From contig CM060191.1 in assembly GCA_030549335.1 (NCBI GenBank), forward strand, positions 2,361,001 through 2,425,000: a stretch of 64,000 bases of DNA, in the 5' to 3' direction. The notes below the pieces were generated by a model that saw only the letters and a program-made list of their open reading frames with translations, made no database searches and was not told where the DNA came from. Both the position numbers and the translations under genes were made by a program. Origin of the DNA: Pontederia crassipes. Its lineage: Eukaryota; Streptophyta; Magnoliopsida; Commelinales; Pontederiaceae. Shown here in pieces: positions 3,033-61,000 of the stretch (position 1 is its first letter; each line of letters starts with the position of its first letter).

Positions 3033-3589
3033 AAATGGACGGTTCAAATATAATCTAATAAATATAATTATAATAATTATTAATTATAAATAATTATTAA
3101 TAAATATTGGGAACTACCCCCGCCCCAATCCCCGAAAGAGGGGGCGGGGGCAGTTTGGCCCCCATCCCCGCCCCCGCAGGGAAAAAAATCCCCGAATGCG
3201 GAATTGAACATTGCCACAAATTCCGGGGGGGGGGTGGGGAATATTGCCACCCCTACTTCTGTCCGTTGCTCTTCCGGATGCCCGAATATTCGATGTCAGC
3301 TAATATTAAAAGTCTTAAATTTTTAGGAAATTTCAGTGTGTTACATTATATGTTACAAACTATTTATTTGTTTCGTTGGATATGGAAGAAACATTTTTTT
3401 ACCTATTGAACATTGAATCTTTGCAAAATTCATTCTTTGTGATTTGAGTTATCCTAGAATGCTTTCGCCTGAAGGAATTGACATCAAACGTTTGTCTTGG
3501 AGCTGCAGATTGGATTACTTCTTTTACGTCAAAGTGAGGGTAATCCAACACCTTTCGAACATAAGAGAAAACAAACATCACTCCCAAGC

Positions 3590-5739: not shown

Positions 5740-7560
5740 GTTGCATATTTAAGACCCAAGGCATTGTGAATGGAAAATCATGTGATATCATCATTGATAG
5801 TGGCAGCTCAAAAAACATTATGTCACAATCTTGATTGATCGCCTAAATTTCCCGTTGAACCTCATCCTGCGCCATGTCGAGTTGGTTGCATCAAACGAGG
5901 AATGGATCTGCAAATATCCATGATATGTCAACTGCCATTCTCCATAAGCCATCAATAGCAAGATACTATTACATGTGGTGTCCTCTACTAAGATTCCGCC
6001 GACAAATTGATGCAAGAGACTTTGCATATGGGATGAGAAAAATGTGTGTTCATTTATTAAAAATGGTCAGCATATTCGTCAATGCTCTTAGAGGAACACG
6101 ATAGCCTCACTGCTAAACTCATGATGTTGATTACAAAGTACCATGATTTTGACTACCACATGAGACAAGCTGGTTCCTACTTTGCATTGGTGGAACATAG
6201 TTGCGAGAAAAATACTTGGACTGCTTATGTGCTAGAAATAACTTAACTACTATAGACCTTTCGATCAATAATGTTTGAGGAGTTACCCATTGAGTTGTCA
6301 TCAGATTTGGACATACAGTATCAAATCGATTAATAATACCTGGAGCCAACCTACCAAATCTGCCACATTACCAAATGAATCTCTGTGGACATATGATATT
6401 GAAAGATCAAGTGGAAGAACTAGTTAGCAAAGGACTAATTTGCGAAACCGTTGGTCCTTGTGCTATCCCCACATTGTTAGTCCCTAAGAATGATGGGTCC
6501 TGGTGTATGTGCATTGATAGCCGAACCGAGCAATTAATAAAATGGTTGTGAAATACATATTTCTCATCCCTCGCTTGGAGGATATGCTCGACATGCTCAA
6601 TGATACTAGTATATTCTCTAAATTGGACTTATGAAGCAGTTATCTTCAAATACAGGAGGGGCTCTATGAATAGAAAATGACATTCAAGACAAAGGATGGG
6701 TCTATGAGTTGTTGGTGAAGCTGTTTGGATTGTTAAATGCCCAGCACATTTATGCAAATTATGACACATGTTTTGAAATCACTCTTGGAAAAATGTGTAG
6801 TCATTTATTTCTATGACATATTGATTTATAGTGAATCACGAGTGGAATATTCCAACCATTTGCATGATGTGCTAAAACTTCTATAGGATAACCAACTACA
6901 GCTTAATATGAAAAAAAATGCATTTTCTCATCGATCGATTATTATTCTTGGGGTATATTTTAAGTGTTGCAACAATTGACTAGGACAAGATAAAGATTAT
7001 ATTGACATGGCCAACAACGAAGACCTTAACTCAAGATTAAAGATTTCATGGTTTCATATCATTTGATCATTCGTTCATTCAGAACTTTAGTAGTATCATG
7101 GCACCCATAACAGAATGCACGAACAAGGGCAAATTCAAGTGGACTAGTGTTGTTGAAGCCCGTTTTGTGAGATCAAATGACGCTTGACGACTGCACCTAT
7201 ACTAGCATTACTAGATTTTAATAACATCTTCAAAGTTCAATGTGATGTCTCAACTGTTGGAATTGGAGCAATACTTAATCAAGAGGGAAGATCCAAAGAC
7301 TAGTAGCTTTCCATAATGAAAAGCTTAACGAGGCACAATGAAATTGGACTACGTACAACCTAGAATTTTATTTAGTGGTGCAAGCACTAAAATAATGATA
7401 ACACTATCTAATCCAATGAGAATTTGTCTTGCACGCAAATCATGAAGCGCTCAAACATCTCCAAAACTAGACTCAGTCCAATTGAATGCATATGCATTAG
7501 GTAACCTTTCTTAAAAAATTACATTTGTTATCAAACATAAATCTACTTCTATGAACAGGG
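5740..7560 (+). pseudogene. gypsy protease - reverse transcriptase - RNase H remnant
   Basis: The aspartic protease site DSGS is readable at 5795-5806 within an IDSGSSKNIM context. The RT begins with the DQVEELVSKGLICE block (about 6405-6450) and the [17 protein letters not shown] block (6475-6525). The catalytic box reads VIYFYDILIYS (6800-6832), whereas active gypsy enzymes have F/YxDD, so the first catalytic aspartate has become tyrosine. An RNase H-like LLDFNNIFKVQCDVS motif follows at about 7210-7255. Several stops are present throughout. This is a clearly dead polyprotein. Confidence 0.82.
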
Positions 7561-28023: not shown

Positions 28024-31000
28024 CTGCATACATTTGAACATGAAACATGTCACTGAATATTCAAGCAATGCTACTAAGTATTCACTATTTAAATGATGTA
28101 TGCCTGGAAATATAGTTCTAATTAATAAAATATTTCTAATGCTCATAATATACATGTATCCACAAAACTGAAATAGAGATTTATGATGCATCATAACAAA
28201 ACAAACTGAGAGCATGTGAATGATAGGTTATTGCATTGGCATTTCTTATTCAACAGCTGCGGAACGTAGCTGCACAAAATTCAATGTGCCAGAACAAGTT
28301 TCAAGCTTCTTGAAGTGTAAGCTCTTTCTTGGTGCCAGAACAAGTTTCAAGCTTCTTGTAAGTGTAAGCTCTTTCTTGGTTTCGTTTTCTTTGTTTGACA
28401 TTGGGATGGGGCTTCAAATATGCAGTGGAAAACTATTGATTGCAAGGATTGACCAATGTTTATTTAGTAAACATATCAAAAAGTGATATTTCTGTCCTTT
28501 TTGTGAAAGCAAATGATACCTGCCAAATTGTGCAGTCATACTAATTTTCAGAAATCAACATCCAGAAGAATTAAATCACTAACTCATGGACAAACTCACA
28601 CAAGATTCATCATGTATCCCTTGACCTTAAACAATCATTGTTGACCAGGGGAGAGTTCACAAGCCCTTAGGATCTCTCTATGATAAAACATGTTTTGATA
28701 TCGTATGCCCTAAAACATAGAGACCCTTGGAGCTGTGAACTTACAACAACAACAAAGCCTTATCCCACTAGGTGGGGTCGGCTACATGGATCATACGACG
28801 TCATATTCGTTGATCCATGTTCATAAGATTCGACAAGATTTTATGCTGGCTGTCGGGGCCTAACACAACCCTCCTCCTTTATCCGGGCTTGGGACCGGCT
28901 ATAAAATATAGGCGGAGTTAGAGGTTCCATTTTCAGGGGACTTTGTCTCTTGGTGGTCTCTCATGGCAAGGGATGATATGAGTCCTGGTGATGGTTGAGA
29001 CAGATTGCTGCAGTCCTCATTGCCTAGGCACTGATATCTGGACATAGACTTAGGAAAATTTTCGATGTCGTAGTTGATGCAAAGACCCCAGCCAAAGAGG
29101 ACAATAATATGTGATGACCTATTAATTCACATCATGTTCCTAAAAAGTTTCACATCTTTAGATCTCCATCTCATAGCCTCCATGATGTATGTTCGATCCA
29201 CACGTCTGAGTTACACCTTCACTCACTTGAGCCGATATTATAAAGATCCCGATCTAGATATTAAGATCTCACGAGTTTATGATCTTATTACCCTGATTCA
29301 ATCTCAGTCTTATTTTGAAGATCTTATGTGTAAGATCTCAATATGATCTTAATTTTGATCGCACAATCTTACATGGTGATTAACATAATCATTTAAATAC
29401 TACTAAAAAATATATTCATCATGATAATAATTAACTTCGATGAAATTTAATATGCTTTCATCATTTTTATTATGTTTTGATACAATTTGGTTTAAAAATC
29501 GGTAAAAGTATGACTTACTGAAGTGTAATTTATGTCTCAAGTATGTTAAATTCATCAAAATATAGTTTTCAAATTAGTATTTTTATTAATAATTACGATC
29601 ATACTATCCTAGATCTGACCTTATGCCTTATGGCCCCCATATGATCATATGTAAGATATTGATCTTGAAAAATTGGAGCAATTAGTTGAAACTCTTGATA
29701 ACAGGTAGTTGGCAGCTTCATAGATTGGGAATGGAGTGAGAATTCATTTTACAAGTGTTAGGCATTTAATAATTAGGAATGGTGTATAACTTCTGTTGCC
29801 GGAGTGTTCAAGTGGTGCTATAATATGAAATTAATATTGCACTTTCTGATGCACTTATAGCGCCAAGTTGGTGGTGACAATATGAAACTGATATTGAGTT
29901 TTCTGATAATAGGTAGCTGTTCTTTGAGGGCATAAAGGATTATTGAAAAGGGTGCAATCATACAGCTTTAATGATGATGTAAAGATTTACATTCAATAAA
30001 TGACTAGCAAAGAAAATCACATCCCCGTCCATTCTCTTGCTATGTAGAGTGCTAGTGGTGCAACATTCTCAATATAGTCTCTTGCCCATGAAAACACAAT
30101 TATTATGTTGGCTTTAGCAAGTAGTTGACAGCTTCATAGATCGGGAATGGAATGCGCACTCATTTTAAAAGTGTTGGGAATTTGATAATTAAAACATGAA
30201 GACCCTTTGGAAAATTAGAGAGTTGGGTACGAAGGAATGGAGGGTAACTTTTGCTGCTGGGGTGTTGATGTAGTGTTCTTATATGAAAATAATATTGAGT
30301 CTTCTGATGAGCACTTGTCATGTCATATTGGTGGCGCAAATATATATAACTTGTTTTCTTACAATGGATGAGAGTAGTGTTTTTTTTTGTTTGAGACATG
30401 TCTTTTTCACGTCAAATTATGGTTGTGTTCACGGACCTATTGTTGAAACAGCAATCCTTGATTTACCACTAAGCATGGAATAATGTGAGTAAAGGCTCTG
30501 GATAAAATTAAGGTTAAATCATTATAAATACAAATAAAGAGACCAGTGCTACCTTCATTAGTCCCTGCTCTAGTATGAATCCCATAACCATTGGCACTGC
30601 AGTAAAAACACCAATCTGAACTAAAAATTGAGCATTCAAAGCAGCATCAAGAGCTGTATTTCCCAACAACCTCGCCCGACGAGAAATTGCTGAATCTAAT
30701 CCAGAGAGTGCCTGAAAATATTTTGACGATTTCATGAGGAACAATCTAGTGGTAAAAATATATTCCATCACTAGCATACATAATGTTGGAATAATCATAT
30801 TCGTCTATATAACAGTTAAATCAAATCATAAATGTATCAAATGAAAACTCTTCTATTGTTGATTTGAGAATAAAGGAGAGGTACCAGGTAGACCCTTCCA
30901 TACAAGAAAACGTAAACAGTAAGCACAGTCATCTGTAAGAAAAAGAAAATTCATAAGAGGTGACATCATTAACAGAAAAAAAAACCAGTAAAGGTGCATA

Positions 31001-34000
31001 GGAGGCGTGGAGAAACAAAAGCATATAAAAGATTCATACCATTGTACACACATAAAAGCCAACAGTGGTGAAGAAGAAAGACAACATCCTAAAAAAGTCA
31101 AAAAGCTGCCCCAGTCTATACACATCTCTGCTAAGAACTTGCTCCCCATTTCCGCCAGCTACCTTGCCCTCGAAAAGTGCAATTTGATTCAAGCCAACAT
31201 CTCTACCTTTACCAACCTATCAGGAAGCAATCTTTTAGCAAAGCACAAACAAAATTCATTACAGTTCCACAAAATCATAAGGAGGAAACCTGTATATATT
31301 CATGATGTGTCACATTTCCTTGCCGCAATGTAGAATTGAATCCTATAAACAAATTTGACACTTGCAAACTTTAGTATAAATTGTTTAATATTTACACTTG
31401 CAAACCCTGTTACACACTTGTACATTCATATTTTGGTTTAATATTATATGGATGATTACCAAATTTTAGTCATCTTTTCTTCTTTAGAAAAAAAGAAAAC
31501 ACTTGCCAACCACTTCAAACTATAAGATATAAAAAACAGAGCATAGAAGGGGTAATCAGACACAGCATGGGACCAAAGTCAAAGAGAATAAAACATTTGG
31601 AAGAATTTGAAAGACTGACGATTTAAAAGCATTACGATTGTTTATTGATGACCTCAAAAAAAATTTATTCATGATCTACCACCTCCAGGCATTAATTTGA
31701 GAATTATGAGGGATGAACAAAGGAAGAGAATTTATGAGAAGAAAAAAATGAAAAAGAAAATTAAGGAATGAAGAAACATTAAGAAAAAAAAAGCAAGGAA
31801 GAAGGATTGATTTATGAAAAATAGAGGATGATTAATGGAAAGAAAAAGAAATCAATAAGAAGTTAAAGAATATAAGATCTAGGAAATAATCATTTTAGAA
31901 AAGATAAGTTTAATATTCTTAAAAAGTATTAATTTCATAAAATATAAATGCTGATTTTTTTTATCAAAGATTATTATTAAGCTTTTTTTATTATGTTTAG
32001 TTACACTTATTTTTTTATTAAAGATACCATTAGTAAGTATCTTTTAATGTTTTTAAAGTGGAAGTATCTTTTATATTATAAATAATAATATTTTGATAAA
32101 ACCCAGCTCAATGTCCAGTTCAGGTATAAACGCATTTTGTAGAGCTAGAATCAAAGGGAAAATGTAGACTAAAACATTCAACGAACAGACAATGCAAGAA
32201 TAAAAAGGATTAAAAAACCCCAAGAATGTGGATGCCGAGGTGAGCACGAGGATGAAAAGTAAAATCTCCTCAAACCTCTCGTACCACTAGAATCAGCGAA
32301 ATGGAGGAAATTACAACACTAATCCCTGAATACATAGATTTAAAAAAATAAATTGAATACAAAGTATTGATTGATAATGTAAGGAATTAAACAATATTTA
32401 AAAATTTTACAGCAACCATTTGATGTCAATAAAACATTCAACGAACCAGACAATGCAAGAAGAAAAAGGATAAAAAACCCCAAGAATGTGGACGCCAAGG
32501 TGAGCACAAGGATGAAAAGTAAAATCTCCTCAAACCTCTCGTACTACTAGAAGCATCGAAATGGAGGAAATTACAACACTAAACCCTGAATACGTAAATT
32601 TAAAAAAATAAATTAAATATAAATAAATTGATTGATAATGTAAGGAATTAAACAATATTAATAAATTTCACAGCAACCATTTGACGTCAATAAAACATTC
32701 AAAAAACCAGACAATGCAAGAATAAAAAGGATAAAAAAACCCCAAGAATGTGGACGCCGAGGTGAGCACAAGGATGAATAGATAAACATTTTCATTAAAA
32801 AAAAAGATGAAAAGTAAAATCTCCTCAAACCTCTCATACCACTAGAAGCATCGAAACTGAGGAAATTACAACATTAAAACCTGAATACATAGATTTTGAA
32901 AAATAAATTGAATATAAATTAATTGATTGATAATGTAAGGAATTAAACAATATTAATAAGGTTTACAGCAACCATTTGATGTCAATAAAACTAATAACAT
33001 ATTTTTTTTTAACGAGCTAATAACATAAAATCAGATAAAACTCGAACTACTTTAGAGCACATAACACTCCTAACCCTTCATCCTACAGAAAAAACAGCCA
33101 TATGGGACAAGTAACTGGTCTATTAAACAATATTCGGGAAACTGATTTTATTGTTTGTCCAGACTGCAGTGAAAAGCAACAGCATCAACTGCTACTCCTT
33201 ATTTCAACCTTCTGATTAGCTTCATTTACATATATAGTGTAGTCCATTTCCCATATTGAATATACGCCCATGGAATGAACTTTTGGTTAATAAAAAAAAT
33301 GTCACTGGGCAAATATGCTTGTCATAAACAGCATATCATTCTTCAACAATTAAAAAGATACCATTTGACAAGACTACGTTCAATTAGATGTTTCATTAGA
33401 AACCTCTTTTTTGTCAAACAAAGTCCTGAACATTGCTTATCATATCCTACTTTTTCAAACAAATCGAGAAATTGCAACTATAATTGCAAATAATAAGATA
33501 TGACGTGCGACAATCAACTAGATGTTGAAGTTCAAACTATTTAATCTCTATTTAAAATGTTAGAGCCCAATATATCTCATGGATGGAAGGACCACGACTC
33601 TCCAACTGTAAGTAGTCATTGACCTTCAAGAAAAGTTATACATAACATTAATGTTAAAAGATTACGTAATTCTTGGACCTACCAGCATATATGTCTTCAC
33701 TAATATTGATTACACGAGAAGCCTTGCTTATGCCGCCTCTTGTTATGTGAAATATCCGATCAAAAACATCAGGATGGCCATAGTGCATCCGAACCCTGTT
33801 AAAGGATGATGAAAAGAAGAGTAACGATAAAGATTAAAATAATGAAATCAAATGAACAATCCACAAGCCCGGATATTGTGAAACTCCGCCTATGTTTTAT
33901 AGCTGGTCCCAAGCCCGGATAAAGGAGGAGGGTTGTGTTAGACCACGACAGCCAACGTAAAACCCTGTCGAATCTCATGAACATGAATCAACGAAGCGTC

Positions 34001-34041
34001 ATATGATCCATGTAGCCGACCCCACCTAATGAGATAAGGCT

Positions 34042-34072
<31 letters not shown>

Positions 34073-46000: not shown

Positions 46001-49000
46001 GTTGATGTAATCAATCCCAGAATAACCATCTTCAATTCCTGCAATTTTATTGACCAAATTCATAGAGCTGACTTAAAGGTAAAGAAAACAACAGGCTACA
46101 ATCAAGTTTAGTGACATAAGAGCATCCACAAAAATATGGTAATGTTCGGACCTTGGACTATTGAATAAATACATCGAGAAACTATTAATCAAAAGCTATA
46201 CAAGTAAAATTCTTAAAAAAAAAGATAAGTAAAGCATAAACAACATCCAGACGCATGACTCCTAGGAGTATAAGGTACCTCCAAGATACCGTCTTTCCAA
46301 ATAGCTTTGCAGCATAAGAGCCCTTCTATAATACATCATACCACGCACTGTCAAAGTAAGACATGAAGTGTTGTCACACAATGCACAAAAATATCACTTC
46401 AGAACAAAATTGAAGAGCTAAGGAGATTAAGCGAAAGGATAAAACCAAACATAGATGTTAAAGCATGTTCAGAAAACTAATTTATAATACAATACAACAA
46501 CAACAACAAACAACAACAAAGCCTTATCCCACTAGGTGGGGTCGGCTACATGGATCATACGACGCCTGATCCATGTTCATGAGATTCGACAGGATTTTAC
46601 GCTGGCTGTCGGGGCCTAACACAACTCTCCTCCTTTATCCGGGCTTGGGACCGGCTATAAAACATAGGCGGAGTTTCCTACTTCAGTGTTACCAATCACA
46701 AGTTTTGCATCAGGATAGCGGGACTTTAGCTCTAAAAGTTGCTTAAGTTTCAAAGGTCTATACCATCTAAGTCCACCAAAGCCATGCAAGCAAAGAGGCA
46801 AATTCTTCTTCAACGTAAGCTCTGGTGGAAAAATAAGTTCCTTGTCACCATATGAGCTTCCATCAACTTCGTCAAATGAAACAGGTCCATTTTTTCTAAT
46901 ACAATCTAACAAAAAAATCTAGAGAGAGAAAGGGAAGCTAGTTCAATTCCCGTGTATTCAGGTAGTTGGCAACCTGCAACAATGACACACTGACCTGTTC
47001 TGGCTAATGTCTGCCCCCGATATGATACCCAAAACCGCAGCTCCAATATGTCATTTGGGTTATCTTTAATACGACCAATACGTTCTAAGAAATTTTCCCA
47101 TTCATCTGTAAAAAAGGAAAATTTGTCATGTAGCACATAGAGAAACAAAAGATAAAATTAAAAATACGAATATCATCACATTTACATTACACCATAGCAG
47201 GCATTTGAAATTAGCCTTGTAATACAAATTGGCCACAACTTTTATACTAGTGGATTACTATTTATTAGCCCTCCCTTATCATCCTTTTCTCACTAAAAAA
47301 ATTGAGTTGTCATTTCATGCACCCTTGACAACATATGAACCATGCTGTGGTTATGGTGAACAAACAGAAAAGGCAGATGGCCAAGCAAGTAGAATGACGA
47401 CAATATAAAAATATTATGATATGTCGTGCACCGATTACGTATATTACTTTTCTCACAAAGGGTTACATATAATAATCAACATTTATCCATAGATAACAAG
47501 CGGGCCCATCTTTTCTGTAATAATAATAAATGGTAATATGATTGTTTTTTACCTTTTCATGTCTTTTGCATACAACTTCTCAAAATAATGAATGTTTGTT
47601 ATTATTAAGAAGCATTCATCTGGGGAATGTTGGCAAACAGAAAAGAATTACATGAGGAATGATGAATTACTTTCAACTTTCAAGTTGCAACGTATCTAAA
47701 GCTCAAAGAAATAGTTATTGATCATCACCTGGGAAAATTTTCTGAAGATAGAAAAGAATGGAGATGCCATCTTCATTCTCATCCCGGAGTTCTGAATAAC
47801 TATATAGTACAGTTTCACTATAGTATGGAGTAAAGACACTGCATTTGAAAAGAACAAATATCTTTAATGAAAACATTAATATGAAAATGAATGATCATGA
47901 AAAGCTAAAGTTTTGACTTGAGAAGTTACCTAAATGGTATCATCTTTGAAACAGGTACTGCTGAAGGCATGTTCATGAACAAAGAATTCGTAAAGAACTG
48001 TAATCTTCTTCTAGCTTCTAAATTCTTAGGAATGTTGGCAGAAGAATCTTTTACAGTTAGAAGCAAGTGCAGACGTTTTACTTGTTCCTTCTGTGAAAGA
48101 AAAGAATAATAAGATCAAAGAGAAATTGCTAGTCAAAGTCAATGTTAAAATAGAAAAAAAAAACTCATACAATTTCTGCTTGTTTGGGCCAAGATATGTT
48201 AGAAAAGAGGCGGCCTTCGCTTATCGCTCTAGACAAAATTTGCCAAGTACCAAACTGTTCACTGAGAACGATGAGCTCAATAAGATATGAAGCAGTGGCT
48301 TTATAATGGATCACATAATGCAAGTACAAACAATGATCTCGATATTGCATAATACCTGAGGTTTTGTGATAAAAACTCACGAGTAATAACATCATACAAA
48401 TCATAAATAGCTTTTGAAGCACCTTGTCCTGGAGTCTCATCCCATATCTGTAAAATGTTTGAGCCAATTCCTAAAAAAGAGTGAACAAAAAAAAAAGAAG
48501 AAAAGAATAATCCAAAAACCTGACAATTGCTGCAATTTTATCAAACTGAAATCTAGCACAGTTGTGCAGGAAAAAATACTCAGAAGTAATATCAAGGAAA
48601 GAAGTTCACAAATACAGAAACAACGATATTTGAACATAAGATATAACACAACATAAAGAAGAAAAAATTATCACTTAAATTTATTCTTTCAACATTTATA
48701 CTTCACATGGAAGAGGTGTTAGTCTAAACACAAGTGCAATTAATATGCCATCATGAAATATCAGAAACTAAAACCTCACAGTTACAACCAAAACCTCCTC
48801 GTGTCTGTGTCTACGGATCCAGGAGGCAGAGGACCCCTCCCTTAGCTATCTGGACCACGGACCAACACGATTTTAAGTGAAGACTTTATTTGGGGAGTGG
48901 ATAAGTTATCTGTAGTGTGGTGGTGTCTTCTTGTTTTCATGGCCTAACTTATAATGCTTTCGCTGGTCTTTCTTGTTTTAGAACTTCTTTATAATCCCTC

Positions 49001-52000: not shown

Positions 52001-55000
52001 TATTATATATTAATATATACATTTAATATTAAAAAATAATCTGGTAGAATCGGTCGTGTCGTGTTACGTGTTCACGATTTACGAGTTTTTCCGGCCCTCC
52101 GTGTCGAGTCCGTTTTACGTGTTTGACAACATTGGGTGTACACCTCCATTAAGCCATATATATAGAGAATAAGAAGGATGTCTACCAAGTTGTGGTAATC
52201 ATCGACAGATGTATTAAAACCCCACTCTCAAAACAAAAAGTAGTTTTGTAGCCAAATGACCCACACGATCGCCAAATACCTCGCCATAGGTTGGTTATAT
52301 GCATGGTTGTTTCACCTATTGAGGGATCTCAAAGACCTCTATGAAGCCTCTAAAGTTTGTGATATGTGCTTATCGCACATCTCCCTAGCGATGGCACAAT
52401 GGGGGTATAGATCGGTCGTGTCCTCTCTGATGCTACACAAGCAACAAGATGTGTTGGTGCTAGGCATCAACCTCACAGGATAGGCTTTGGTAAATTTCAT
52501 GTAACACTCCCGACCAACGCATAATACTATCCACTATGGGCCTTGGCCTCACGGTTTTACCAAAACATGTCACGCCCGAGCAAGGCCATGGAGCACCTTT
52601 CCCGTGACATGCACGTGGAACTAATCCAAGGCATGTCTCTTGCATCCTTCCTTCTTAGGGGCTCAACGTACTCATTGAGTGTTCGGACCCCACCATGCAC
52701 AAAGAACCACGTGAAGTGGTTCAATACCATAGATAACATTCAATGCTTCTGTGACCCATAGGGCATGAAAAGATTCTGACTTTAAAAGGAATGCGGGATC
52801 TCCAAACAAGTTTTCAATTCGTCTTAAGGTTATCCATGTATGTGCGCTCCGAAAGGAACTAGAGATATATGGCACTAGGCAACAGGGGGTAATCCTTTGA
52901 TGTAGGGCCAATAACTCGATGATGCACTGTCAGAAGCCCAAGCGTGGATGAGAGGGAGAGTGTGCAAATGGAAAGAAAAGATCAAAGAGGAAGTGTTTTT
53001 CACTAGGTGAATGAGCCGCTTTACTTCTCCTGGAGCATTTCAGGCGGACTCGCATTGGACCAGAATTAAGCCACACGTTTTGATCAGTAACTGAAATGAT
53101 TTCAGTTTGATGACTCTGATGTTGGTGGTTTTTTTTATTTATAAACTATTAATGCTACAAATAATTGAAAAATGCAGGTTTGATCAGCTGATCATTCCAG
53201 CCAAACTCCCTCTTAATTTGACAATTATATGATGGATCTTAAATCAACATCATTACTGAATGATGCTATTGAAGTACTTTAATAATTAATGATTTTTTTT
53301 TTTTGAGAAGGAAAAGGATGACCGCCCTTAGGTTGTCATCCGGATATATATATATCACCAAAAATAAGCATCATATACAAGTAGAGGCTCTCCAGTATAG
53401 AGCAAGGAAAAAAGGGGAGGAACAAAGCTAAACAGGACCCCACTCCCGAAGAAAGCAAAAAGTGTGATGTACAATACTATCCACCTGACATCTCTCCCCA
53501 CAAAAAATGACTCGGTTACGCTGGAGCTAGATGGCCCAGGTACCAGCCAAGAAAGTCGCCAAAATAGCTCTCCAGTCCTGCCTCTGTCCTGCAAGACGTC
53601 TGATAGCCAGCCAACAATCTGCAGCCGTCTGGGGGAAAACACCACATTAGTGAATAAATTTTAGCAGCTTCAAATTCGCATCATTACTGTTTTTTAGCAG
53701 CTTCAAATCAGCAGTCCGGACACCACATGCAGGGCACCTGGACTGTCATCCCACTTGAGGTGCAAACGGTCGAGCTGTACCCAATTTCAAAATCCACATC
53801 CAACCTGTAATGCCCCCGCATGCGAGGTGAACCCAATCCACCAATCAGCCACATTTCCCTTGAATCCAACATCGGGTCGTGAGTCGACTCGACCTCCTTC
53901 CATCATGAGCCCAACATCCATAATCCCTCCGCCCAATCCCACCACCCGATGAATCTGAACACACGCCTTCATGCTCGGAATGAGCTAGACCATTGTGTGC
54001 AACCACAACCCCAACCTACCTCCCTCCTCCGCTGTTGATCCCGTGAAGACACCCACCCGCATCGACTCCGGCAATATGCCGACCATCCTCCGGCGACCAG
54101 CCACCATCACCACCACCACACCCCCGTCTTCGCCAGAACCACCTCATCCCATCGGCCAAGCCCCGACATCACCCACCTCGCCGCATGTACGGATTTCACA
54201 GCCTGCGCAACTTGCTGATGACCAACATCCTCGAGAGGAGCATCCCGCAACTGCCACACTCACCAGCGATGGGTTGGCATGCCTTCTCCACCGATGGTCC
54301 TTCCTTTGCCTACACAAGCGTCAGATCTGGGAGGACAAGGCGCAGCAAAGGACGATGCTCTGAAGGTGGTTGCAGACCGTTAGGCGACTCCCACCACCAC
54401 ACAGACATGGAGGTGGCACAGCCGAGCCTAGGAGACCATTCAACTAGAGGACCAGATAGTGGAGATCCAATGGAGGTAGTCAGACCTGACTTCAAGAGGG
54501 AGATGTCAATACTCGATTCTTCCACTTATATGCAAGCTCTTGACGAAGGATGAACAGGATGAACAGATTGATATGCAGGGCTAGCAGATCTCCGATCATC
54601 ACAGCATTGAGGCGGCCATCACGTCCTACTACTATGCATCATCTCGGCAGCGAACACTGGGCCAGGGAACATCCACCAACTTACTGATGCATAGTTTTCC
54701 TTGGTGGTGCAGGTTATTACCGAGGATGAGGTCGTCAAGGCCCTCCATGACCTCAATAGTGAGGTTCTTCCTGGGCCCAAATGGTTTTCCAGTTTTTTTC
54801 TACATGGAGTTCCGGCCGGTAGTGCGTGAGGAGATGCTCACTGTCATCTGGGAGTTCACTAACAGTGCAAAGCGCACCCTTGCAGAGCAAGTGAACTTTC
54901 GGTCAATTGTCCTATCAAGTGCCATCTATGTGGCTCGAGAGGTGCTTCCTGAGCTGATCCATCCAGCACAGTATGTGGAAGACATGGTGTTCTTCATTGA

Positions 55001-58000
55001 GGGCTCTGAGAAGAATGCTCAAGGAGAGGCCATCCTTGTTGAACTTCTCGACACGACGACCCAGCCTAAAGATTGACCATGCCAAGTCCTTCATCCCTTT
55101 GGCATGGTTCCCGAGGATGCAGCTTGATGTATGGCTGAACTTCACACTCCGATCAGCACCCTACTGTTCACTTACTTGGGCCTTCTAGTCACGGACAACC
55201 ATATCATCTCCCGAGGGTGGACTCCGGTCATCGAATGGGCATCGCACACTAAAACATCTTGCATTCTTTGCGGTGAGGTATCCCGAGGCATCTGGCCTTT
55301 TCTCATCCGACTTGGGACCATGTGACAGTCACTCCAAGGTTTGGCTCGTCAGAGACAGAGGTGGAGAACGTCCTTGAGGGCTTTTTTGGTCAATATCTAG
55401 GTCATCTGGATCCAGCGCAATCGGGTGATTTTTTATGAGGAGCGATGTCAGGCTAAGCATATTGTACACATCTTCTATCTTCGAGAGTAGGGTTTTTAGT
55501 AATTTTGCTGCTCTCTTTAAAAGCCTACACTTGTACATGACTTTCATTTCATAGTTATATATAAATGAATGACAACCACAACTCTGGCACTCATTATTGT
55601 TTTCCTAAAAAAATACTAAGTAAATAGTTGGCCCAATAACAACAACAACAACAACAACAGAACCTTATCCCACTACGTGGGGTCGGCTACATGAATCATA
55701 CGACGCCATTCCGCTCTATTAGTAACATATTCGTTGATCCATGTTCATGAAATTCGACAAAGTTTTACGCTGGCTGTCGGGGCCTAACACAACCCTCCTC
55801 CTTTATCCGGGCTTGGGACCGGCTATAAAACATAGGCGGAGTTGTCATTGAAAAAAAAATGCATAAAAATTGTATCACAAAAATGAATTCTAACAAGATG
55901 GACCTTCATAGCTTTGACTGTCTGAGCAAAGTGGCCACTCCCGCCATCTGGTAGGTCATCCCGGTCCACACTAGTCAACACAATGTAATCCACTCCCCAA
56001 CTCGCAATTGCCCAATAAGTGGCAACAAAATACAGCTAAGTCTTTTAGGTTTGTTTGTGGGGCAACAAGAAGTCCAAAAGTTAAAAATACCATCCAATTC
56101 AACTTTGAAAACAGAATACGGTTTTCTAACCAGTATAGAAAGCATTATCCAAAATCACTACCAAACACATTCATAATATTTTTTTTAAGTCATTCATATT
56201 CATTTATTAAGAAATAAAAAAAATGCACCAACCCATTATACTCTTCTTAGTAAGTGTATCAAATAAACTTACAAGGAGCCCAGTCAAGGCAGTGAACCTT
56301 GACAAAACCAGTGGCAGCTTTTTAAGGCTTACAGTTACAGCAAGGGAGCCCATAGATATACTACTGTTTAGTTCAAAGAAGAGTTTCTCAACCCTGCATT
56401 TGCATAAATAATTATAAATGAACATTGTGAGCCAAAAATATATGGATCACGAACAAAAGTTCAAAATTCAAACAAAAATGGTTACATAATTTTTAATATA
56501 AAGAAAACAGGCATACCAACGGCTTCCTTCGCCATCAACAAGAGAATGCAGAATTTTCTCTACACTGTAGTAGCATTCCTTAATAGCATAAGCCATGTAT
56601 TCATCCTTCGCTATTTTATTCCACAGCTCAGATTGCGAGTCCTTGGAGTCTAAAACCATTTCTATAGCCAATGATATCTAGAAAGGATAAAGAAGAGAAT
56701 TCAGTGTACTAATTGAAGTCAGCTTGCCAGTCAAGATATTTTAAAAAGATAGAAATTGCTACAAAAAGAACCTTATTGGTTAGAAGAAATAATGGCCACT
56801 GCACTAATCGCCAACTTCCAGAATTGCTTGGTATAGAAAGCAAATCCATTTCCCTGGAAACATTGAATATGGATTCATATAGCACAATTAATTTGATAGG
56901 AAAAAAAAACATGACAAATATACTATAGACAAAAACAGAAAGCATCAACCTGTTACTAATATAATCCTCTTCGCGTAAACTTTTGATAATTTCATTCCAA
57001 AAAGGAGAAAACTTGGCAGCATATTCCTTGGCTTTATCTTCAGGATCCTGATGCATTAAAATAAAATGAATACTGAACTCAGAAAGAAAATCACAAAATT
57101 AATTAATAAAACAATATCAATATGGAGTCAAAACCTCGAAATAAGCAACTCTGGAACAGTTCATGCCACTAGTCAGAGGTAACTGAAACTAATTTCAATC
57201 TCCACATTTCAAGCCAAATCTAATAGAATTAGAATGATGTTTGGTAGGGTTCCAAAGCCACATAATCCTCTCCCTTCTCACTGACAACGAATTATTAAAA
57301 TAAGATGGAGCCATTCTAAATCCTATCTAGCCAATCTTCCCCCATTTTCTCACCCCTCTAACCTAACCAACCAAACAATGCTAGCAAATAAATCTAAGAC
57401 AGATGGAAAAAATAACCATAGAATTTTACAATTAAAAATGGTAGTAATAAAAGGAAAAACATTACGACTTCGTTATCTCAAATTAATAGAAAGAAAAAAA
57501 CATTGGCCTGTATATAGCATGTAAAGACAATTTTTAAATCTTTCACACCTGTGGCAGCCTATTATGCAGATTCCTACAAATACAAAAAAACAGCCATTAG
57601 GGAATACAAAGAGAACAAAAGCGCGGTCACAGCTTCAACAAGCAAAAATGAGCATATAACCTCTCGGTTTGGGATGACACTAGATTGTTCACAAAAGCAG
57701 CAGGAAAGCTCTCAAATCGTTTATGAAGCATTTCAAGCGTCCGTATCTGCAAAATTCAAGTTAGTTTTTGTAGAAAAAAGAATGGCAGAAATTTATGAAG
57801 AACTATGTAGGCAAGTCAGACCTCTCCTAGGCGAGCTCGTGCACCAATTACGCCACCAACAAGGGCTGATAAGACTGTGTACCATATGTGAATATCCATA
57901 AGGTAAATCTGAATATAAACATGAACAATCAGTATGAGGGTTTATTTTCCACTTAGTAGAGCAATCACATCAAAATGAGCCAAAGGGAACTTACAGCAAC

Positions 58001-58094: not shown

Positions 58095-61000
58095 GGTAAA
58101 CATTTTTTTTTGAGAGGGGAAAGGATGACTCCCATTGTGGTTATCATCCAGGTATGCATATAACTATAAGAGCAACAGTCATGTACAAAAATGAGTTCTC
58201 AAGAAAAGAGCGCCAACACGTGCGGGGTGTACAATAGCTAACCGAAACCCCACTCCCGGAGAAGAAAGGAAGCATGAAATACAATAGTATCAATGAGAAT
58301 ATGCTCCTCACAAAAAATAATACGGTTGCACTGAAGACAAATGGCCCAGGCACCGACCAAAAAAGACGCCAACAAAACACGCCATGTCAGCCGCTGGCTA
58401 GCTCGAGCGCGGAGTGCGTGCCAAAATGTCACAGCCTCATAAGGGAAGGCGATCAGCGACTCCCATGTACCCATCCTCAACCAAAAATCCCGAGATACCT
58501 TGCAGGTGAAGAAAAGGTGATCAATATCCTCCGCTGAGTCTCCGCACAAGGGGCAGGAAATGTCTGCGTGTGGTGCCCACACCCGAGGGAGAATAGATGC
58601 CACACCCCTCCATAAATATGAAGCCCCCCAAGGAAGAACAGGTCTAGAGTCCCATGATAGGTCATGTCCATATCAGGTAAAGAAAACTGTCCTCCAAAAG
58701 CTATCAGCTGGCCCCATGATCCGTCCCACCCATCGGGCTAGGAGAGCCCAATTGGTGATGCGAAGGTCGCGTACTCCAAGGCCCCCCCTGGGTCGTGGAT
58801 CTGCAGACGATGTCCCATGCAACCAAGTAGACTCCTCGGCGGTCAGAGTCACACCCGTGATAATAATCAATCCGTCTCTGTACCTGACCACGCATCAAGA
58901 AAACCGACATGTAATAGATGGGTAAAGCTGAGAGAACATATCGGAGAAGAACAAGCCGGCCACCCCGTGATAATAATCTGGAGGTCCACCCATGGAGTCT
59001 GTGCTCAAGTCGCTGAATAACTGGAGTCCATCCTCTAGAACCTATGCGTCGGTCGGAAAGTGGAAGACCCAAATAGGTGAGCGGTAGGGTATTAATCGGA
59101 GTATGGAGCTCTGCCGCACAACGATCGGTGACTGCCGAGACCATGCCAAAAGGGATGAATGAAGACTTAGCATGGTTGATATGGAGACCCGATGCAGCAC
59201 CAAAAAGCTCCACTAATATAGCCACCCATCTGGCCTCCTGGACCGAGCCCTCAATGAAGAAGACAATGTCGTCTGCATACTGCAAGATCGGAACAAGGAT
59301 GTCGGCAAAACCTGTGAGTAGCCCGGCCCTACACGAAGCCTGGGTGCATCTGGTTAAGGCATCAACTGCTAGCACGAAGAGCATAGGCGCGAGTGGGCAG
59401 CCCTGTCGAAGCCCCCTCTGGGGTTGTACCCAGCCACCAGCCAGAGCCCCATTGACCAGGACAGAGAAGCAATGCTTCATCCACGTGATCCAAGTCGTTG
59501 GGAATCCTCTAACCTGTAGTGAATGCCAAAGAAATGACCACGATACAGTGTCATAAGTCTTACAGAAATCTACCTTCCATCCGAAGGCGGGGGCATCGGT
59601 CCTCCTCCAATGTGTTATGATCTCAGTAGCAATGGATGAACGCTGACTGTGCTGGATGAATGAGGTCAATGTGCTGGATGAATGAGGTCAAGAAGCACCT
59701 CCCTAAGCCGGTTAGCCAATATCCTAGCCACCAGAAGGTAGATGGCATTAGATATAGCTATCGGCCTGTAATCCTCAACATGCTCCGCCGGCGTGATCTT
59801 GGGCCGCATGAAGAGCAGGAATCGATTGAGGCGCTCGAAGCCCCGCTAGCGAACTCTTGAACGACATCCATCACATCCCCACGAAGGGTAGACCAGAACT
59901 CTTTGTAGAAAAAGAGCGGGAAGCCGTCTAGCCCTGGCGATGCATCAACATTGAGGTCCCCAGGTCCCCGAGCGCCTGGGCCGCCTCATCCTCTGTGATG
60001 GCTGTGATGGCACAGAGACTGAGCATCAGTGAGAGTGGAGATGTCCCCAGGGGACCACCTCCGGGAGCCCGGAGGCTGCCGCCTGTAGAACTCTCGATAA
60101 TAAGAAGCAATGGCTGTCCCGATGGACTGCTGGCCGACAATCTGCTGCCCCTATCTCCAGTCGGTCAATCATGTTCGCCCTGCGATGAGAGCTAGCATAT
60201 AGGTGGAAAAAACGAGTATTGGTGTCGCCTTCCCGAAGCCAAGACTGTCGAGAGCGTTGCCTCCACTAAATTTCCACCAATCTGTCCTCAAGCAGAATGG
60301 TCTGCTGAGCCCGCCGATCCTCTGCTAGCTCCGCCTCCGTGAGGTGGCGATCGTCCCCCAAACGGTCCATCTGTGTGATAATCCCCAATGCCTCTGTTTG
60401 GCGCCTCTCCCTGTCCTCCCGAACCTGCCTCCGAAAGGTCCAAAGGAAGGACCGCAAGCTATCCAGCCCGGTGGTAAACGTCCTGGCGGTGGAATCAAGA
60501 CGCCGGAACACTCTTTTGAGCCTTCTTGGCACAAGGCGATGTAATGGTCTTCTGAGCCTCCATGTGGCCTCCGCATGTGCTCTAGGCCGCCTGCCCAGGT
60601 AGCCGGTCAGCGCTGCCGCACCGAGTGCGTTCAGCGAAAGGGGGGAGGCAGGCAACCGAGCATTGCCATCCGGCTGTCTGGACAGAGAGGTAACCCCAGG
60701 CAGAAGGTGCCGGCGCCGATAGTATTGCACTCTGTTGGCCCCATCCGGGCTGTGCAGGCTGTTGTCAGAGGGAGCCCGGCAGTCATGGCTGCCCGAGATG
60801 GGTGGAATCAGGGGGAGGTCGAGCTTTTGGAGGGTTGCAGGCGGGGGTGGGGGGGAAGGGGAGACTGGTAGGTGGCTGGGGATGGGAGTCGCCTGCAAGG
60901 CCGGGGTCGAAGGGGATGGTGTCGGCGTGCGGCAGAGGAGAGGCGCCGTCGGCGATAACAGAGGAGGGGGAGGGACTGTCGGTGAGGGCAGTCCAGTCTC

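Follow-up and report, generated by a model that had tools for sequence, protein, structure and literature searches.

A lipoyl synthase fragment and a short RTE-derived element within one target duplication

The window analyzed here is a stretch of 64,000 nucleotides of the Pontederia crassipes genome (C9:2361001-2425000 of a 1.13-Gb assembly in 43 contigs). Within it, two copies of the 9-bp repeat GCCCAATAA, at 55631-55639 and 56010-56018, enclose a composite unit, hereafter the LIP unit, which reads along the minus strand (55631-56018) as target duplication, 106 bp of lipoyl synthase, 60 bp of intron, an element with a (GTT)n tail, and target duplication. The 5′ duplication (TTATTGGGC on the minus strand) occupies 56010-56018 and the 3′ duplication 55631-55639. 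The sequence-only reading had already proposed that gene fragment, intron and element form one unit in one 9-bp duplication, and locating the repeats on the minus strand bears this out. It had also described the 106 bp as a single exon piece; the gene was correctly named, but the segment consists of the final 15 bp of one exon (55995-56009, minus strand, 14/15 identical to the donor described below) and the entire 91-bp next exon (55904-55994, minus strand), fused without the 258-bp intron that separates them in the donor. The 60 bp of intron start from a GT donor (55844-55903, minus strand) and end with the left arm of the duplication that surrounds the donor's element. The element itself, a short internally deleted RTE element (SIDE; 55640-55843, minus strand), starts with AACTCCGCC and ends in (GTT)n. 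A match to the type-P1 twister ribozyme spans 55789-55848 on the minus strand (63.8 bits, E 2.9e-14, for a gathering score of 67.2).

Broken stretches with reverse-transcriptase-like words adjoin the LIP unit at window positions 54000-55560 (plus strand) and 58238-59687 (minus strand). A Pfam search of three window ORFs returned no match; one of the three resembles what we presume to be callose synthase, an identity that we do not claim.

An RTE LINE with its middle deleted

The element had been called an Au-like SINE. It is instead an internally deleted RTE LINE, a SIDE in the sense of the R2 literature, and not a tRNA SINE. An RTE reverse-transcriptase query, similarity to which defines the class assignment, detected an RTE family at 73-75% identity (150 scored of 8085 candidates). 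Many copies carry a 1033-aa open frame, so the family has probably been active recently. A full-length representative, L077 (C9:2501500-2505900), has the 1033-aa frame, a 16-bp duplication, a GTT tail and the same AACTCCGCC start. The short copy L039 is 94% identical to L077 over its first 115 nt and 95% identical at its end, over 64 nt, and by reading, the end of the RTE frame corresponds to the residues that the 3′ end of the window SIDE would encode. About 115 nt at the start of the SIDE and ~55-70 nt at its end are RTE LINE sequence. A Pfam RVT_1 search for the LINE gave frames of up to about 1540-1640 aa, with a few longer, which by reading are LTR-type.

Among 45 short elements (40 sampled loci and five in the window), 44 map to both ends of L077; the other, L070, has no 3′ match to it. 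Breakpoints fall at 94-122 for the 5′ part and at 3090-3146 for the 3′ part of the 3160-nt reference. The 44 elements show 28 breakpoint pairs and seem to stem from numerous independent internal deletions, not from a single master family. New short elements may keep arising when the reverse transcriptase switches from one end of the RTE RNA to the other. At the breakpoints, RTE nt 100-109 are perfectly complementary to nt 3118-3127 over 10 bp, and both arms are kept in 39 of the 44 elements; the duplex energy calculated for the end regions did not beat chance, with 52 of 500 shuffles reaching values as low. That RNA structure would guide the birth of the short elements is our guess from these sequences.

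A donor gene on C13 and a related copy on C3

Searched alone against the 1.13-Gb genome, the 164 bp beside the SIDE occur in three places: the window, C3:36209155-36209311 (100% identity to the query) and C13:54616930-54617079 (99%). The C13 locus is the donor gene. Its joined exons encode a protein of 391 aa with a TIGR00510 lipA score of 398.8 bits (cut-off 310.25), in a model whose first intron was one of several open choices and was picked by likeness to known lipoyl synthases. A SIDE lies in sense orientation in the intron that follows the 91-bp exon captured in the window, as a test suggested by the sequence-only reading had anticipated. It is flanked on both sides by its own 17-bp duplication, TTTTTTTTTCAATGACA, and therefore reached the lipoyl synthase gene on its own. 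Both the window copy and the C3 copy include the left arm of this duplication and contain no gene sequence past the SIDE tail, which sets the direction of copying from gene to window.

The donor intron between the 15-bp and 91-bp exon parts measures 258 bp, has GT..AG ends and is removed exactly in the window copy; in the C3 copy the identical exon join is preceded by 8 bp of the upstream exon. This exact loss indicates that the template was RNA, spliced upstream and left unspliced at the SIDE-bearing intron. An unspliced RNA or a DNA-level source had been suggested before: an RNA that kept the SIDE-bearing intron is what we find, but its upstream intron had been precisely spliced out.

The window copy contains 7 nt more of the upstream exon than the C3 copy does and so does not derive from it. 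Over 152 comparable LIP positions the two copies have no differences, and each differs from the donor at one. They have in common an intron T where the present donor has C. This shared base and the identity over the 152 positions would suit a C3 copy that is a daughter of the window copy, as opposed to separate origins of both from the donor gene; the T, however, may be the donor's older state, and we regard such descent as rather unlikely. No target duplication of at least 10 bp was found within 3 kb of the C3 copy. In this copy (L013, C3:36208953-36209311) all 19 private changes counted fall in the SIDE, and 16 of them are C>T or G>A; 16/89 C/G sites are changed in the SIDE vs 0/62 in the LIP part (Fisher p 2e-4). 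The pattern would be consistent with methylation that targets only the repeat, or with a different origin of the SIDE part.

A putative twister motif at the 5′ end

Rfam searches place a match to the type-P1 twister (RF03160), a candidate ribozyme, in the initial ~60 nt of the SIDE, the window copy falling below the gathering score, which is exceeded in two of the 19 loci given (L039 and L048). Ten of 11 loci given match at E≤0.001, all except the decayed C3 copy (L003), and the 5′ end of the full-length RTE also matches (59.6 bits). Twisters are described as cutting at U-A, with the U less conserved and stem P1 dispensable (PMC5408937). The Rfam alignment places the conserved UAA so that a U|AA cut would leave AACUCCGCC. 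An A precedes ACTCC in 30/30 copies of the first sample described below, and in nine copies from both samples the duplication ends one base earlier, so that this A belongs to the insert. Ordinary copies thus start at the expected twister cut site. The twisters of the donor and the window copy are not visibly broken, the sole exception being one donor-private change that is absent from the copies.

Host sequence is not rarely carried by the copies sampled

An 80-nt pattern of the SIDE 5′ end has 9,836 genome copies at no more than three mismatches, and 11,543 when its first 9 nt are dropped. Forty copies were inspected, comprising the first 30 exact matches listed, every one of them on C1, and 10 of the 82 variant copies. 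A near duplication, indicating a normal 5′ end, was present in 25/40, of which 22 were scored by script and three by eye (L038, L070 and L072). A far duplication enclosing 0.3-1 kb of host sequence was present in 5/40, a fraction to be read as 'not rare' because the sample is small, comes mostly from one contig and consists of young copies, two of which (L036 and L052) share one captured segment. Excluding duplications, the host sequence carried amounts to 388 bp in L036, 545 bp in L048, 992 bp in L050, 950 bp in L052 and 327 bp in L068. One further copy, L051, is a tandem duplicate of L050, and nine were assigned to no class (L025, L026, L027, L032, L034, L042, L043, L066 and L067). Far exact matches of 13-15 bp occurred in 4/30 copies of the first sample; among 868 mispaired-flank controls one reached 13 bp and none was longer. 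L068, whose segment contains an antisense SIDE, is the weakest of the far cases, and L044, scored near (10 bp at −3), also has a 16-bp match with one mismatch at −152.

XDH, kinase and other captured sequences

A second unit in the window (46485-46905, minus strand) carries part of XDH. Its 5′ duplication ATTGTATTA lies at 46897-46905 and its 3′ duplication ATTGTATTA at 46485-46493, both on the minus strand. Between them, on the same strand, lie a 221-bp XDH exon fragment (46676-46896), the translation of which scores 26.4 bits against PF00941, just under the cut-off of 27, and a SIDE identified by element comparison and breakpoint mapping (46498-46675). A second XDH unit, L015 (C9:30864957), has a 16-bp duplication and ~580 bp before the SIDE, 557 of them aligning to XDH. 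Both units have the same mid-exon break at the SIDE 5′ end, and five other XDH copies that were retrieved have an exon that continues with no SIDE at the breakpoint. The LIP and XDH units had been thought to share one architecture; both do enclose an element and an exon in a duplication, but the XDH unit differs in kind, with its mid-exon break and five element-free copies. The 5′ end of the long XDH unit (L021 about 6600-6640; C9, about 30864600) appears by eye as a patchwork of short XDH words.

The carried segment of L052 contains a spliced junction, a kinase exon (PF07714, 25.6 bits, cut-off 23.1) and roughly 830 bp of intron. The kinase chimeric junction recurs, with different 5′ ends, in L036 and in L057, whose duplication was recognized by eye. 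The kinase donor intron contains no SIDE, and the chimeric junction has an 8-nt filler. The sequences of the XDH and kinase units suggest template jumps whose products underwent a later round of copying. With the LIP, XDH and kinase units and the others found here, the recurring mechanism suggested earlier is upheld.

L080 contains 134 bp plus a SIDE within a 12-bp duplication, and L082 is a similar site that is empty. L079 and L081 (C20:3448900-3450800 and C9:6659100-6661000) have the host sequence of L080, its 134-bp piece and the SIDE, followed by other 3′ flanks; they resemble daughters of an L080-type unit, a possible serial transduction. L078 shares its chimera with L050, and the upstream part of the L050 family recurs in several places. 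Elsewhere in the window, a SIDE at 33850-34062 (plus strand) has a 17-bp duplication and 15 extra 5′ nucleotides, of which GCCCGGATA recurs inside the element; a 5′ template jump might leave such nucleotides. For the SIDE at 28743-28919 (minus strand) no target duplication was found within 4 kb upstream, and it is possibly a longer transduction.

Discussion

We conclude, at a probability of about 0.88, that the LIP unit is a 5′ transduction from the C13 donor through a partly spliced RNA: host sequence that lies upstream of the SIDE in the donor has moved with the SIDE inside a new 9-bp duplication. A SIDE had inserted in sense into an intron of the C13 lipoyl synthase gene, making the 17-bp target duplication. 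A lipoyl synthase RNA then lost its upstream intron and kept the SIDE-bearing one, and this partly spliced RNA was copied into DNA from the SIDE 3′ tail and inserted in the window with the 9-bp duplication; a related copy lies on C3. We infer that the RTE enzyme performs the reverse transcription. Four findings count against this reading: the RNA 3′ end lies at the SIDE tail, inside an intron; the window twister is below the gathering score, which only 2/19 loci reach; the donor's twister change is private to it, so that there is no sign of breakage at the time of copying; and the C3 copy was found without a target duplication.

The XDH and kinase units bring a different route into view, in which reverse transcription starts on a free SIDE or RTE RNA and jumps at its 5′ end to a host RNA. 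For XDH and probably for the kinase, host RNA would first have been joined by such a template jump at the element 5′ end, as the mid-exon XDH break at that end, the five XDH copies without an element, the SIDE-free kinase donor intron and the 8-nt filler all suggest; in vivo jumps of R2 elements to U12 and to tRNA have been reported (PMC3414825). Applied to the lipoyl synthase RNA, this explanation encounters a donor SIDE at the very same position, where a jump need not land, and the left arm of that SIDE's own duplication inside the copies. It is nearly refuted for LIP, and we consider it very unlikely there. Capture at the DNA level, by Pack-MULE, Helitron, segmental duplication or repair, could account for the retained intron sequence, but the upstream 258-bp intron is exactly absent, an argument that holds unless this donor intron is younger than the copies. 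Judged by this missing intron, the unit is not the genomic fragment with introns kept that a Pack-MULE or Helitron would carry; moreover, a retroposon tail ends the unit and a target duplication flanks it, which leaves DNA-level capture next to no chance. Nor are the copies ordinary processed pseudogenes with their own poly(A), as they end at the SIDE tail and have no downstream exons.

The size, TTG-rich end and intron position of the element are like those of plant SINEs, and an Au-like tRNA SINE transcribed by pol III could have acquired upstream sequence by read-through. Plant Au SINEs are indeed short retroposons found in introns, as here, but Au-like SINEs are described as ending in poly(T), (PMC3747384), whereas the ends of the SIDE derive from RTE and its tail is (GTT)n. 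The rule for tRNA-type SINEs puts an A box near +14 and a B box near +54 (PMC2774510); in the SIDE, the best B-box match has two mismatches and lies at position 30, and the A box is matched exactly at just two positions, 130 and 135, within the RTE-derived 3′ part. With the first ~115 nt and last ~55-70 nt coming from an RTE LINE and a twister match at the 5′ end, we rejected the Au-like SINE, and the read-through explanation is barely credible.

For the 5′ transduction that we favor, the twister motif offers a candidate cause. With somewhat better than even confidence, we propose that the SIDE is promoterless and rides on host transcripts, that the putative twister would free it from them, and that failed cleavage would result in upstream host RNA being carried along. 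A truncated twister at the 5′ end of RTE elements has been proposed to free the 5′ end from upstream transcripts, in a 2020 review that refers to work in preparation (PMC7761336); its passage on RTE twisters is silent on short deletion derivatives and on carried host exons, both of which are present here. The R2 SIDEs of Drosophila similarly combine a 5′ ribozyme motif with a LINE 3′ end across an internal deletion; they too depend on a host cotranscript, and R2 shows template jumps to cellular RNAs (PMC3414825). The systems differ in that R2 has a self-cleaving, HDV-like ribozyme and an rDNA site, whereas here there is a twister-type motif, an RTE LINE and ~10,000 dispersed copies, with exons of protein genes carried. 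In 5′ transduction by human SVA, upstream host sequence likewise moves with a non-autonomous element from a host-promoter transcript, although SVA differs from the SIDE in element, helper and tail (PMC13317346). Ribozyme-headed SIDEs (R2) and 5′ transduction (SVA) are therefore already known, while the relevant passage of a 2026 review treats plant 5′-transduction as so far unreported (PMC13317346), and our search of the openly licensed (CC) literature, as far as its texts were available, turned up no account of a SINE or RTE element causing 5′ transduction in a plant.

Here the donor, the spliced daughter and the target duplications are all present in one assembly, and the twister motif makes the cause of upstream host carriage accessible to a simple cutting assay. 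More tentatively, and at something short of even odds, these sequences suggest ribozyme-gated exon shuffling, in which promoterless, twister-headed RTE derivatives residing in pre-mRNAs would relocate spliced exons whenever a cut fails. If this is true, ~10,000 copies with 5/40 carrying host sequence could imply about a thousand events, as an order of magnitude, within a single plant genome, some of them perhaps serial, and if it is general, plant genomes with RTE elements may contain many unannotated exon-carrying inserts.
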